Shown here in pieces: positions 3,999-12,116 of a stretch of 37,902 bases of DNA (position 1 is its first letter; the number at the start of each line of letters is the position of its first letter). Made by a program: the position numbers and the translations under genes. A model generated the notes under the pieces. The model did not search any database and had not been told where the DNA came from. It worked only from the letters and a program-made list of their open reading frames with translations. Source of the DNA: Sporosalibacterium faouarense (GTDB lineage Bacteria; Bacillota; Clostridia; Tissierellales; VENL01); assembly GCF_016765695.1 (NCBI RefSeq), contig NZ_JAETGO010000091.1, positions 1 to 37,902 of the forward strand, in the 5' to 3' direction.

Positions 3999-5021
3999 AT
4001 GACGAAGCAAAAGGATATAACTGTATTAGCTATTGAAACATCTTGTGACGAAACTTCTGTGGCAATTGTGAAAAATGGCAGGGAGGTTTTATCGAATATT
4101 ATCGCATCACAAATAGATGTTCATAAAAAATTTGGAGGAGTTGTGCCAGAGGTCGCTTCAAGAAAACATATTGAAAATATAAATATAATAATACAAGATG
4201 CTCTTGATGAGGCTAATATGACATTTGATAATATAGATGTGGTTGGAATTACATATGGGCCAGGATTGGTAGGAGCCTTATTAGTGGGAATTTCTAGTGC
4301 AAAAGCTATAGCTTTTGGTAGAAATCTTCCATTGGTAGGAGTGAATCACATTGAAGGACATATATATGCTAATTTTATTGAGGATAAAAGCTTAGAACCA
4401 CCTTTTATTACTCTAATAGTATCTGGTGGACACACTCATTTAGTGTATGTTGAGGATTATGGCAAATATGACATCTTAGGAAAAACTAGAGATGATGCTG
4501 CAGGAGAAGCTTTTGATAAAGTAGCAAGGTCATTAAATCTTGGATATCCAGGAGGACCATTGATTGATAAATTAGCTAAAAAAGGAGATAAGGAAGCAAT
4601 TGATTTTCCAAGAGCCTACTTGGAAGAAGGAAGCTTTGACTTCAGTTTTAGTGGTCTAAAATCTGCAGTACTTAACTATCTGAACAATTCTAAGCAAAAG
4701 GGTCAAGAAATAATAGTAGAAGATGTGGCGGCTAGCTTTCAACAGTCAGTAATAGAAGTGTTAGTAAATAAAACTATAAAGGCAGCTAAATCAAAAGGGG
4801 CAAAAACTATAGCGATTGCTGGTGGAGTAGCAGCTAATGAAGGGTTAAGAAGCTTAATGAAAGAAAAATGTAATCAAGAGGGATTTGACTTTAAATATCC
4901 TGCAAAAATTTTATGTACAGATAATGCTGCAATGATAGCGTCCGTAGCCTATTATAATTACCTAAGAGGTGAGAGAGCTAATCTTGAACTAAATGGAGTG
5001 CCAAATCTGAAATTAGGATAG
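3999..5021 (+). CDS. tsaD: tRNA threonylcarbamoyladenosine transferase TsaD (Kae1/Gcp/YgjD)
   Basis: TsaD transfers the threonylcarbamoyl group to A37 of ANN-decoding tRNAs, working with TsaB and TsaE in bacteria. The 340-residue product has the usual length, the N-terminal ASKHA nucleotide-binding start ([11 protein letters not shown]), the metal-binding HxxxH in NHIEGH (His117, His121), VSGGHTHL, and the late [10 protein letters not shown] phosphate loop. An ATG preceded by GGAGGG supports the start. Two TATAAT hexamers (3964-3969 and 3975-3980) lie just upstream. TsaB and TsaE are not next to it here. The DnaA-box cluster begins about 80 bases after its stop. Confidence 0.97.
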
Positions 5022-5026
5022 TACTA

Positions 5027-5050
5027 CATTATGTAATTGACATTATGTAA
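5027..5050. repeat. Direct repeat of CATTATGTAA after tsaD
   Basis: Two identical 10-bp copies, CATTATGTAA, lie at 5027-5036 and 5041-5050, separated by TTGA (period 14). They sit between the tsaD stop and the DnaA-box cluster. The function is unknown. Confidence 0.5.
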
Positions 5051-5099
5051 AATCATATGACAGTATTTTACAAAAACTTTACACAATTTTAGTAACAAC

Positions 5100-5279
5100 T
5101 TGTCCACAAAAATAATATATATTATTCATAGAATTTGTGGATAATGTGGAAAAAATATAGAAGTCCCATTATAAGTAGGGATAAAAATGTGGATAAAGCT
5201 GTGGATTATGTGTATATTTTGTTAATTATTTGGGAAAACTATGATTTTTTACAAACTAAAACTATTAATTTGTGGATAT
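5100..5279. promoter_or_regulatory. Cluster of six DnaA-box-like sequences (candidate DnaA-binding cluster)
   Basis: The consensus bacterial DnaA box is TTATCCACA. The tsaD-radical SAM gap (5022-5349, 328 bases) holds two perfect boxes on the minus strand (TGTGGATAA at 5136-5144 and 5188-5196) and four one-mismatch boxes: TTGTCCACA at 5100-5108 on the plus strand, and TGTGGAAAA at 5145-5153, TGTGGATTA at 5200-5208 and TGTGGATAT at 5271-5279 on the minus strand. Five of six share one orientation. Neither dnaA, dnaN, rpmH nor mnmG is present, so a DnaA-titration or regulatory cluster is a better reading than oriC. Chance occurrence of two perfect boxes within 61 bp is unlikely even in AT-rich DNA. 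Confidence 0.7.
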
Positions 5280-5349
5280 TTTACAATGGCCACTGTTGAC
5301 ATAAAGTCACAAATTTTGATCAAACAATAAATTAAAGGATGATACAAAA

Positions 5350-6696
5350 ATGAATATAGCAAGAAAAGATATAATACTTCATACTATTCAGACCCATAAT
5401 ATATTACCTATAACTTCTGCTTGTAATACTAACTGTATATTCTGTAGTCATAAATTTAATTCACAAGATTTGAATGTATACAAGCTTCCCCAAATATCTA
5501 TTGAAGACATAGAGGTTATGGTTAGTTTTTTAAATCCAGGTAGAAAAATAATTATAGGAGAATCTGCAACTAGAATAGTTGAAGGGGAACCTTTTTTAAG
5601 AAGAGATATTCTAGACATATTAAGGATTATTCGTAAACCATTCAAAAAGGAGACCATTGAAATAACTACTAATGGTACAGGTCTTACTGAGGAAAAGATA
5701 AAAATTTTAAAAGAATTTGAGCCTATTGAATTGAATATTTCCTTAAATTCGGCCAGTGAACCTGGACGACAATTATTACAAGGGGATAGGAATCCTAAAA
5801 GAGCAATAGAAGGAGTAAAATTATTATCTAAATATAATATATGTTTTCATGGAAGTATTGTTGCCATGCCTATGGAGGTTGGATATAAGGATATTTATGA
5901 AACTATACTATTTTTAGATAATAATAATTGTAAAACAATTAGGTTGTTAACACCAGGATTTGCTAAGGGGTCTGTGATTAAATTTAACTTTTTTGAGTTA
6001 AGAAAAGAATTAGATAAATTTATAAGCAAAATTCAGCAGGAAGTAGGAGCAACAATATTATTGGAACCTCCAATCATTACAAATTTAAAACCAGTGGTAG
6101 AAGGAATAATTGAAGGAGGAATAGCCCATAACTCAGGTATAAGAGCAGGAGACATTATCTATAAAGTCAACGACTATGAGCCAAAAACTAGAGTAGATTG
6201 TTTTAATTATATATTTCGCTCAAAAAATCCTACTTTAAAAATTAAAAGGTTATGTAGTGGCAATATTGATAACATAGAAATATACATGACTAAAGGAAAA
6301 AATACTTCTCCAGAATTTGTTATGCTCTACGACATATCTAGTGATACAAGGGAAGAAATCCTTGAAGTAATTAGAAGAAATAGAGCTAAGAATCCTATAG
6401 TATTAACTTCTGAAATAGGAATTGATGTTATGGAAAAGCTCCTTGATGAAGAAATAAAGTCCGGAATGTTAAGTGTTAAAGTAGTAAAAAATACATATTT
6501 TGGAGGGTCAATTAAATCGGCAGGGCTTCTATTAGTAGAAGATTTCATAAAAGAGATTAATGAGATAAAAGAAAATAATGTACCAGACTTAATAATAATA
6601 TCATCTAAACCCTTTGATTATTTAGAAAAAGACTTAAAGGGAAATAGCCTCTATGATATTGAAGATAAAACAAAGGTAAAGGTTGAAGCTATCTAG
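5350..6696 (+). CDS. Radical SAM protein with internal PDZ domain and DUF512-like C-terminus
   Basis: The 448-residue product has a CxxxCxxC cluster (Cys25, Cys29, Cys32) near its N-terminus, as in radical S-adenosylmethionine enzymes, followed by a TIM-barrel-like stretch including TTNGTG and ISLNSA. A PDZ-like segment (about 245-315, with GGIAHNSGIRAGDIIYKVND) follows. The C-terminal part (about 340-445) contains YFGGSIKSAGLLLVEDFI, which resembles the FFGGxVTVAGLLTGxD signature of DUF512 proteins. In DUF512 proteins as I know them the PDZ comes first, so this order differs. The substrate is unknown. It converges on the ABC-F gene with only five bases between stops and no hairpin between them. 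The SD is weak (AAAGGATG). Confidence 0.75.
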   Translation: MNIARKDIILHTIQTHNILPITSACNTNCIFCSHKFNSQDLNVYKLPQISIEDIEVMVSFLNPGRKIIIGESATRIVEGEPFLRRDILDILRIIRKPFKKETIEITTNGTGLTEEKIKILKEFEPIELNISLNSASEPGRQLLQGDRNPKRAIEGVKLLSKYNICFHGSIVAMPMEVGYKDIYETILFLDNNNCKTIRLLTPGFAKGSVIKFNFFELRKELDKFISKIQQEVGATILLEPPIITNLKPVVEGIIEGGIAHNSGIRAGDIIYKVNDYEPKTRVDCFNYIFRSKNPTLKIKRLCSGNIDNIEIYMTKGKNTSPEFVMLYDISSDTREEILEVIRRNRAKNPIVLTSEIGIDVMEKLLDEEIKSGMLSVKVVKNTYFGGSIKSAGLLLVEDFIKEINEIKENNVPDLIIISSKPFDYLEKDLKGNSLYDIEDKTKVKVEAI

Positions 6697-6701
6697 AGAT
6701 A

Positions 6702-8621
6702 TTATATATCTCCTGTTAGCTCAACCCACTTTTCAAACATATTTTCTAAACTAACTTTTAATTCTTTGTTTTCCTGGTGTATCTCTTTGCTTTTTTCAGG
6801 ATCAGAGTATATTTCTGGTTGACACATGAGCTCCTCAAGTTCTTTTATCTTAATTTCCGCATCATTTATTTTTGCTTCAAGATTGTCAATAGCTTTTTTC
6901 TTTTGTTTTTCTTCCTTTTTCTTTTCTTTCTCTTTTTTACGAAGAGCTTTTAATTCTGTTTTGGTAATTGTAGGCCCATCATCTTCCTCATTATATGAGA
7001 GTTCGTTCTTTTTCTCTAAATAATAGTTGTAATTACCGAGATATTCACTGATACCATCTTTGGAGAATTCTAAAATTTTGTTGGCCACCTTATTTAAGAA
7101 ATATCTATCATGGGAAATTATAAATAAAGTTCCATCGTAATTTAATAGGGCATCCTCAAGTACTTCCTTTGAATCTATATCTAGATGGTTAGTAGGTTCG
7201 TCCATTAATAGAAAATTAGCATTAGATAGCATAAGCTTTAATAATGCAATCCTACTTTTTTCTCCACCACTTAAATCGCCAATTTCTTTAAAAATATCAT
7301 CTCCATAGAATAAAAACTGTGCTAGAAGTGTTCTAATTTTATAGTGATCCATAGAAGGATTTTCGTCCCATATTTCATCCACTATAGTTTTCTCAGAATT
7401 TAAATTTGATTGTTCTTGGTCATAATATCCAACATTAACATGATGTCCAAGTTCAAAATCACCTTCATAATCAGTAATTTCCTTCATCAATATTTTAAAT
7501 AGAGTAGACTTTCCAATACCGTTAGGACCAATAAGTCCAACTCGCTCACCTCGATAGATTCTAAGAAATAAATCTTGAAATAATTGAAAATCATCAAAGG
7601 ATTTTTGTAAATCATCTACCATCAGCACTTCATTACCACTCTTTACCTTAGGCTCAAATCTGATTTTGGCTTTGTTCCTTAAAGAGTCAGGCCTATCCAC
7701 ACGCTTCATTTTTTCCAACATCTTCTGTCTGCTTTGTGCTTGTCTAACGTATCTCTGCCCGCCATAGGACATAAATCGTCTAATGATTTCCTCTTGCCTA
7801 GAGATTTCTTTTTGTTGTTCCTCATATTTTTTTGCTTGAAGTTCTCTTTCTTCTTTTCTTTTTGTCATAAACACAGTATAGTTTCCATTGTATTTTTTTA
7901 GCTCTGTATTTTCTAAATAGAAAACTTTATTAACTATTGCATCTAGAAAATATCTATCATGAGAAATAATTAAGCAAGCTCCTTTATATTCTTTTATAAA
8001 TTTTTCTAACCAGTTAATGGCTTGTATATCTAAATGGTTGGTTGGCTCATCTAAGAGTAGAAGATCAGGTTTCTTTAATAGTAGTTTAGCTAAGGCAACC
8101 CTCGCTTTTTGACCACCACTAAGCTGATAAATAGGTTGGTCGAATTGTTCTTCATCAAAACCTAAACCTTTTAAGACGCCTCTTATTTCACTTTTATAGC
8201 CATATCCATTTTTATTAGCGAATTCTTCAGATAGATGAGAATACTCTTCCATAAGGCTTTCAAGCTTTTGGGAAGAAGCTTTTTCACCTTCCTTACTTAT
8301 TTGTTTTTCTAAAGATCTTAGTTTATCTTCCATATCTATTAGAAATTGAAAAACCTCAAGAGTTTCGTCATAGATAGTTTTTTCACTTTCAATCTGTGTA
8401 TCTTGTCTAAGATGTCCTATTCGACAATCCTTAGCAATATAAATATCACCTGAATCCTTGGATAGCTCTCCTGCCAATATATTAAATAAAGTGGATTTAC
8501 CAGACCCATTAAGACCAACTAATGCTACTTTTTCACCATCATTTATCGCAAATGTAATATTATCTATTATTTTATCAACAATATAGCTTTTGGATATATT
8601 ATTACATGATAGTACTATCAT
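6702..8621 (-). CDS. ABC-F family ATPase (YdiF/Uup-like ribosome-associated factor)
   Basis: The 639-residue product has two ABC ATPase domains and no membrane segment. The first domain has Walker A GLNGSGKST (36-44), LSGGQKARVALAKLL and LLLDEPTNHLD. The second has GPNGIGKST, LSGGEKSRIALLKLML and LLMDEPTNHLD. A charged inter-domain linker (RQEEIIRRFMSYGGQRYVRQAQSR region) and a lysine/glutamate-rich C-terminal coiled coil (about 550-630) are typical of the ABC-F group, which acts on the ribosome as translation factors or, in some members, as antibiotic protection proteins. Adjacency to tsaD and rex matches the B. subtilis YdiF position, favouring a housekeeping role. The ATG follows GGAGGAAG. 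Confidence 0.9.
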   Translation of the reverse strand: MIVLSCNNISKSYIVDKIIDNITFAINDGEKVALVGLNGSGKSTLFNILAGELSKDSGDIYIAKDCRIGHLRQDTQIESEKTIYDETLEVFQFLIDMEDKLRSLEKQISKEGEKASSQKLESLMEEYSHLSEEFANKNGYGYKSEIRGVLKGLGFDEEQFDQPIYQLSGGQKARVALAKLLLKKPDLLLLDEPTNHLDIQAINWLEKFIKEYKGACLIISHDRYFLDAIVNKVFYLENTELKKYNGNYTVFMTKRKEERELQAKKYEEQQKEISRQEEIIRRFMSYGGQRYVRQAQSRQKMLEKMKRVDRPDSLRNKAKIRFEPKVKSGNEVLMVDDLQKSFDDFQLFQDLFLRIYRGERVGLIGPNGIGKSTLFKILMKEITDYEGDFELGHHVNVGYYDQEQSNLNSEKTIVDEIWDENPSMDHYKIRTLLAQFLFYGDDIFKEIGDLSGGEKSRIALLKLMLSNANFLLMDEPTNHLDIDSKEVLEDALLNYDGTLFIISHDRYFLNKVANKILEFSKDGISEYLGNYNYYLEKKNELSYNEEDDGPTITKTELKALRKKEKEKKKEEKQKKKAIDNLEAKINDAEIKIKELEELMCQPEIYSDPEKSKEIHQENKELKVSLENMFEKWVELTGDI

Positions 8622-8950: not shown

Positions 8951-9592
8951 ATGAGAAAAAGAGATAATGTTTCTATGGCAGTAGTAAGAAGATTACCAAA
9001 ATATTACAGGTATTTAAGAGATTTATTATCTAAGGATATTAATAAAGTTTCATCTTCTGAGTTAAGTAGATTAACGGGATTTACTGCATCCCAGATAAGA
9101 CAAGATTTAAACAACTTTGGAGGATTTGGACAACAAGGATATGGATATAATGTAAGTGAGTTACATAATCAATTAAGCAAAATATTAGGACTTAATAAAT
9201 CATATAATGCAGTGATAGTTGGTGCTGGTAACTTAGGTCAAGCTATAGGAAATTATGGTGGATTGCAAGAAGCAGGATTAAACCTTTTAACTTTTTTTGA
9301 CAAGAGTGCGAAGATGATTGGACTAAGAATAGGAGACCTAGAAATTAGGGACGTTAGTTCTTTAGAAAGATTTATTGAAGAAAATAATGTGGAGGTTGGC
9401 ATAATAACAACTCCAACTGGGAGTGCACAAGCTGTAGCTGATTTGATGGTAAATAAAGGTATAAAAGGAATTTGGAATTTTGCTGAAGCTGATTTAAAGG
9501 TACCAGATCATGTAATGGTAGAGAATGTTCATTTAAATGAGAGTTTATTTACTCTAAGTTATCTGATAGAAGATAACGATTTAGATGATTAA
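8951..9592 (+). CDS. rex: Redox-sensing transcriptional repressor Rex
   Basis: Rex senses the NADH/NAD+ ratio and represses fermentation and respiration genes until NADH rises. The 213-residue product has the N-terminal winged helix (residues 1-80, including the conserved LTGFTASQIRQDLNNFG and QGYGY) and a Rossmann domain with GAGNLGQA at 91-98. The C-terminal domain-swap helix ends in SLFTLSYLIED. The length is typical. Start ATG 8951 follows GAGGG. It has its own perfect promoter and its own terminator, so it is probably monocistronic. Confidence 0.97.
   Translation: MRKRDNVSMAVVRRLPKYYRYLRDLLSKDINKVSSSELSRLTGFTASQIRQDLNNFGGFGQQGYGYNVSELHNQLSKILGLNKSYNAVIVGAGNLGQAIGNYGGLQEAGLNLLTFFDKSAKMIGLRIGDLEIRDVSSLERFIEENNVEVGIITTPTGSAQAVADLMVNKGIKGIWNFAEADLKVPDHVMVENVHLNESLFTLSYLIEDNDLDD

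Positions 9593-10760: not shown

Positions 10761-12116
<1,356 letters not shown>

Follow-up and report, generated by a model that had tools for sequence, protein, structure and literature searches.

Introduction

Among described DnaA-box clusters (DBCs; as given in PMC7561715, at least three boxes averaging <100 bp apart), the closest to the site reported here is region 4 in Table 1 of PMC4447404, which lies "downstream of gcp; downstream of ydiF" in Bacillus subtilis, contains 10 DnaA sites, and is the cluster beside the tsaD homologue gcp to which the original prediction for our locus had pointed. In that study, gcp-ydiF shows a Kd of 0.15 µM with ATP-DnaA and of 0.33 µM with the ADP form and was recovered 16-fold more with ATP-DnaA; at sda and ywlC of B. 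subtilis, the same study describes DnaA as a transcription factor. Two reviews (one of them PMC13220808), citing Okumura 2012, state that deletion of six DBCs outside oriC leads to early initiation in B. subtilis. One review doubts that the B. subtilis DBCs have significant roles, and ~10-fold overproduction of DnaA is reported to occur without over-initiation in this species (PMC13220808). Further, according to PMC13220808, B. subtilis is without IHF and without the datA and DARS loci, E. coli datA works together with IHF, and whether B. subtilis has any regulators of DnaA-ADP/ATP interconversion is given as unknown in this 2026 review.

Here, we describe an array of DnaA boxes after tsaD in a 37,902-nucleotide stretch of Sporosalibacterium faouarense DNA (hereafter, the window). 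Six boxes in 180 bp make it a DBC by the definition above, and its placement, i.e., after tsaD, outside oriC and facing an ABC-F gene, is of the gcp-ydiF type. The array thus appears to be an extra-oriC DnaA-box cluster of the known gcp-ydiF kind, with DnaA binding predicted from the boxes and from the similarity of the DnaA proteins. Specifically, the DnaA of this genome matches PDB chain 8btg_A (E 1e-185), which we take to be B. subtilis DnaA, and is identical to it over the stretch EFGGRDHTTVIHA, presumably the part of the protein that reads the box.

A DnaA-box array in the gap after tsaD

Six DnaA boxes, two perfect and four with one mismatch, lie within positions 5100-5279 of the window, five on the - strand and one on the + strand. 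The original prediction of two perfect and four one-mismatch boxes in 180 bases, five of them in the same orientation, hence proved right box by box. The gene before the array, the gap and the boxes are as follows.

3999..5021, + strand: tsaD (gcp), NCBIfam TIGR03723 with 457.9 bits vs. a cut-off of 296.1, and Pfam TsaD; the cluster is anchored to its 3' end
5022..5349: non-coding gap with the cluster, 328 bp, 24% GC, bounded by the tsaD stop (5021) and the ORF from 5350
5100..5108, + strand: DnaA box A, TTGTCCACA, one mismatch, the sole box in the opposite orientation
5136..5144, - strand: DnaA box B, TTATCCACA, perfect, 52 bp before box D
5145..5153, - strand: DnaA box C, TTTTCCACA, one mismatch, abutting box B (spacing 9)
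5188..5196, - strand: DnaA box D, TTATCCACA, perfect
5200..5208, - strand: DnaA box E, TAATCCACA, one mismatch, spacing 12 from box D
5209..5217, - strand: possible DnaA box F, ATATACACA, with two mismatches in the window, positioned by alignment with relatives, many of which have TTATACACA or TTATTCACA at this position
5271..5279, - strand: outer DnaA box, ATATCCACA, one mismatch

Chance clustering in AT-rich DNA is refuted as an explanation and retains a practically negligible probability. In 20,000 dinucleotide shuffles, the gap never yielded six boxes (maximum four), and the cluster recurs at the same place after tsaD in 106 of 170 genomes overall (below). The 1,520 one-mismatch boxes in the 4.12 Mb genome give 0.066 expected per 180 bp, and P(≥6) per 180 bp is ~1e-10 from this genome-wide rate, or ~3e-5 with a crude correction for positions; elsewhere in the window, no 180-bp stretch starting at a box contains a second box. 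What speaks for chance is that boxes are not enriched genome-wide over the reversed word (67 vs. 79 perfect boxes and 1,520 vs. 1,793 one-mismatch boxes), and the signal is therefore the clustering, not the number of boxes.

Ranking of the whole genome was based on same-strand tandem patterns, so that mixed-orientation clusters are outside its scope and others of that kind may exist. Tandem pairs of the form TGTGGAW...TGTGGAW occur 15 times in the genome vs. seven for the reversed control, and more than one such same-strand pair is found at only three places, namely the tsaD gap (2), position 98.4 kb of contig C40 (2) and position 15.5 kb of contig C87 (3). That is, the tsaD-gap cluster is among the top DnaA-box sites of the genome in the same-strand ranking, and the cluster idea withstood the check proposed with the original prediction, i.e., a search for many gaps of equal box density, as far as same-strand patterns go. 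Among twelve loci of the same genome (L001-L012), clusters of at least three boxes were present at the C40 site (L009), the C87 site (L010) and oriC (L011, in two groups).

The cluster is on contig C33, and the only dnaA match in this draft genome is on C62, which places the array outside oriC, as predicted. The accompanying expectation that no replication genes are near holds for dnaA, the sole replication gene checked. The description of the site as origin-distal was not borne out: in 16 order genomes, picked for having dnaA and tsaD on one chromosome-sized contig, the two genes are separated by 6.2-33.6% of the contig (mean 22%), and in the present genome dnaA is on a different contig. DnaA boxes in an AT-rich gap (24% GC) could also denote a secondary or cryptic replication origin. 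We consider this very improbable, given that the DnaA-trio pattern used here is absent from 5022-5349, whereas the genome's own oriC2 has TAGTAGTAG, which we take for a DnaA-trio, right after a perfect box, and given the location of dnaA on another contig.

It is similarly most improbable that the gap encodes an RNA element or a terminator with repeats that resemble DnaA boxes by accident. As an inverted pair, boxes A and B could base-pair in RNA, but most boxes are on the same strand and cannot pair with each other; the fold z-score is -1.42, with 17 of 200 shuffles folding equally well; a search for terminator-like sites found none; and a comparison with Rfam gave no family (one miRNA hit, E 0.61, was far below threshold).

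Conservation of the array after tsaD

A genome was scored as having the cluster if the 600 bp following tsaD contained a 300-bp stretch with three or more one-mismatch boxes. In the order, 75 of the 112 genomes qualified, and elsewhere in the phylum 31 of 58, while the same criterion applied upstream of tsaD gave 0/108 and 0/58, respectively. Sixty permuted words used as controls gave a mean of 0.32 loci (maximum 8) in the order and 0.07 (maximum 1) elsewhere. The original prediction that the cluster may be conserved in relatives and across Firmicutes is accordingly supported. Of 120 genomes of the order, 114 yielded tsaD, and 112 of these were examined, without G034, whose hit was partial, and G075, which shares its genus with G115. 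For the phylum, tsaD was found in 196 of 199 genomes, and 60 were hand-picked among the matches listed, spread over the ranking and with long contigs favored; two of these belong to the order, and of the remaining 58 two share the class of the window and the rest do not.

Fewer than three boxes within 600 bp were seen in 37 of the 112 order genomes and in 27 of the 58 others, so that many lineages lack the site or have it in reduced form. One genome scored as without the cluster (G052) has box trios ~660-715 bp after tsaD, i.e., beyond the 600-bp limit. Among 13 named loci, from which one poor match (L025) was excluded, five have the cluster (L013, L014, L016, L017 of Tissierella sp., L024 of Alkaliphilus serpentinus); L018 and L020-L023 have one box at most, and L015 and L019 stop at or just past tsaD. 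No description of the cluster beyond B. subtilis was found among the literature matches listed, in the parts available; Okumura 2012 and Ishikawa 2007 are outside this scope and could hold one.

A link to sporulation was considered and rejected. In raw counts, the cluster is present in 65 of 72 Spo0A-positive vs. 10 of 40 Spo0A-negative order genomes (Fisher 2e-12), where negative means every order genome outside a 77-genome list (23 of the negatives were not named by the search). On the TsaD tree these counts reduce to a few events (11 cluster changes and 9 Spo0A changes), independent pairs are not significant, and for these reasons the link is not claimed.

Spacing and orientation of the boxes

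In the aligned loci (63 of the 170, i.e., those that could be lined up), the core of the order consists of boxes B, C, D, E and F at -52, -43, 0, +12 and +21, with a further box frequent at +32. Recurrent spacings in the order are 9, 12, 21, 32, 43, 52 and 64; a spacing of 51-52 bp, as from box B to box D, recurs in 47 pairs within the order, and a + box 35-37 bp ahead of a - box, the same arrangement as for box A, in 32 pairs. Loci elsewhere in the phylum often show a spacing of 9 and then 12. Of the boxes lying up to 600 bp after tsaD, 303 of 404 in the order and 172 of 190 elsewhere are on the minus strand. Among the periods tried, the distances between minus-strand boxes are best described by 10.5 bp in the order (R 0.749; maximum of the jitter null 0.159) and by 11 bp elsewhere in the phylum (R 0.48; at 10.5 bp R was 0.265, null maximum 0.174). 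It is important to note that the loci are related and box pairs are not independent events; hence, the phasing shows that spacing is kept. A different, short layout was observed in one family (f19, including L105, L096 and L167), with alternating + and - boxes ~22, 33, 72 and 95 bp after tsaD.

Gene neighborhood

The genes that follow the array in the window are listed below.

5350..6696, + strand: radical SAM / PDZ / DUF512 gene (Pfam), which likewise comes next after many of the clusters elsewhere in the phylum
6702..8621, - strand: ABC-F ATPase gene (NCBIfam NF000355, 471.6 bits, cut-off 380), converging on the cluster and taken as the ydiF counterpart by place
8951..9592, + strand: rex, redox-sensing repressor (NCBIfam NF003990, 323.5 bits, cut-off 233), a synteny marker

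The gene order tsaD, ABC-F, rex, groESL, guaA, which the original prediction had likened to the B. subtilis locus, is confirmed by family models for tsaD, ABC-F and rex, and comes from ORF reading only for groESL and guaA; beyond gcp-ydiF, the resemblance to the B. subtilis order is presumed. Further along the window, a glutamate-dehydrogenase-like frame (10776-12116; the name is from sequence reading only) is broken by an in-frame TAA at 11310-11312, i.e., it is either a pseudogene or a sequence error.

The next ORF after each cluster was called mechanically (at least 100 aa). In the 75 order clusters it was a converging ABC-F gene in 62 cases, another minus-strand ORF in eight and a plus-strand ORF in five, two of the latter being the radical SAM gene (the window among them); in the 31 clusters elsewhere, it was the radical SAM gene in 13 cases, another plus-strand ORF in 15, ABC-F in two and another minus-strand ORF in one. 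The boxes are located ahead of the next ORF in 533 of 560 cases. The window combines both neighbors, with the radical SAM gene first and ABC-F next but one after the cluster. Since the cluster stays with tsaD under either next gene, converging ABC-F or co-directional radical SAM, it travels with the tsaD 3' end.

These arrangements bear on a transcriptional role, in which DnaA would act on transcription here, as it does at sda and ywlC in B. subtilis (PMC4447404), and would repress or activate either the radical SAM gene or read-through from tsaD. Co-directional radical SAM genes in the window and after 13 of the 31 clusters elsewhere are consistent with such a role, but the next ORF is on the opposite strand and converges on the cluster in 70 of the 75 order clusters, and promoter-like sites at 4900-5400 are in no excess over shuffles (six vs. 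a shuffle mean of 4.5, sd 1.8). We therefore find a transcriptional site doubtful as the general explanation. Nonetheless, the next ORF is co-directional in 28 of the 31 clusters elsewhere in the phylum, and promoter effects are thus possible there.

Other DnaA-box arrays

A second conserved cluster lies upstream of hpf (ribosome hibernation factor), at 7521-7632 of L010 (G000:C87:15520-15631), with spacings of 12, 9 and 23; in this genome, the hpf array is ahead of secA. A box-trio pattern occurred in 85 of 120 order genomes vs. 5 of 120 for the reversed control, some matches being coding repeats, and 20 trio places chosen by look among the matches listed (L206-L225) were all beside hpf with the boxes upstream (20/20). 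In a set chosen without regard to boxes, namely the 30 hpf loci closest to that of the present genome among 111 genomes with a match (L226-L255; own locus included, and overlapping in genomes with the set of 20), at least three boxes in 300 bp were found within 800 bp upstream in 30/30 and on the downstream side in 0/30, with 183 boxes upstream vs. 12 for the control word. None of the literature matches listed in this connection contains the term "DnaA box". A third cluster in this genome (L009 9977-10163; G000:C40:98376-98562) lies between an N-acetylmuramoyl-L-alanine amidase gene, presumably cwlD-like, and bioY.

Discussion

We favor, as fairly probable, the explanation that the tsaD gap is a cooperative extra-oriC DnaA-binding site that would titrate DnaA and restrain initiation. 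Specifically, DnaA would bind boxes B-F on one face of the DNA and assemble cooperatively, as suggested by the boxes, their orientation and their helical spacing, with ATP-DnaA probably favored by analogy to B. subtilis gcp-ydiF. Each copy of the array would take several DnaA molecules out of the free pool, and the number of copies would double upon passage of the replication fork; an array that removes DnaA and doubles with the fork would, we propose, therefore postpone the following round of initiation at oriC. Any effect on gene regulation would be secondary because the cluster sits between two converging genes in most relatives of the order.

Cooperative binding with titration is favored because the DnaA of this genome is close to 8btg_A, because of the B. 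subtilis binding data, and because of the effect of deleting six B. subtilis DBCs, one of which is presumably gcp-ydiF. On the other hand, the ~10-fold overproduction of DnaA without over-initiation in B. subtilis is hard for simple titration, and two further points count against this explanation: beyond the order the phasing is less pronounced, with its peak at 11 rather than 10.5 bp, and a sizeable share of genomes does not reach three boxes after tsaD. Further, fixed spacing is not needed by titration alone, and the strict spacing therefore leaves room for a function in nucleotide state.

Such a function could be that of a DnaA nucleotide-state switch like E. coli datA or DARS, where a defined oligomer would speed ATP hydrolysis or ADP release. 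Several lines point in this direction: the geometry is kept beyond the needs of titration, with spacings shared by several families and a phasing of 10.5 bp; the B. subtilis site tells ATP- from ADP-DnaA (PMC4447404); and regulators of DnaA-ADP/ATP interconversion in B. subtilis are an open matter (PMC13220808). However, datA works with IHF, which B. subtilis lacks, as it lacks datA and DARS (same review), and by eye no conserved non-box segment for binding of a partner was evident in the 63 aligned loci, and we consider a switch unlikely. A broader version, which is speculative and rather unlikely, would have the tsaD array as an ancient, phylum-wide, fixed-helix DnaA platform, i.e., the functional counterpart in Firmicutes of datA/DARS, which would determine the nucleotide or oligomeric state of DnaA instead of just titrating it and would act with the hpf array; if true, ribosome hibernation would be coupled to the replication cycle through such a platform.

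Whether by titration, the explanation we prefer, or by nucleotide switching, the array bears on the open question of how Firmicutes limit initiation without the E. coli toolkit. An array beside one gene across much of the phylum makes one B. subtilis cluster a strong candidate for the oldest, and helical spacing that is kept in different neighborhoods gives exact spacing mutants for titration vs. nucleotide switching.

Finally, the array can be compared with known systems. Like E. coli datA, DARS1 and DARS2, which act on DnaA, it is non-coding and outside oriC; datA works with IHF, whereas by eye no partner site was evident at the aligned loci, and any nucleotide-state activity of the window array would be hypothetical. 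The oriC clusters of the same genome (L011 4605-4954 and 6471-6630) have the same box consensus as the tsaD gap but flank dnaA, and oriC2 has a TAG repeat taken for a DnaA-trio, neither of which applies to the tsaD gap. Likened by place, B. subtilis gcp-ydiF and the window array are both multi-box sites outside oriC that lie after tsaD/gcp and downstream of an ABC-F gene, with the difference that a radical SAM gene separates the cluster from the ABC-F gene in the window.
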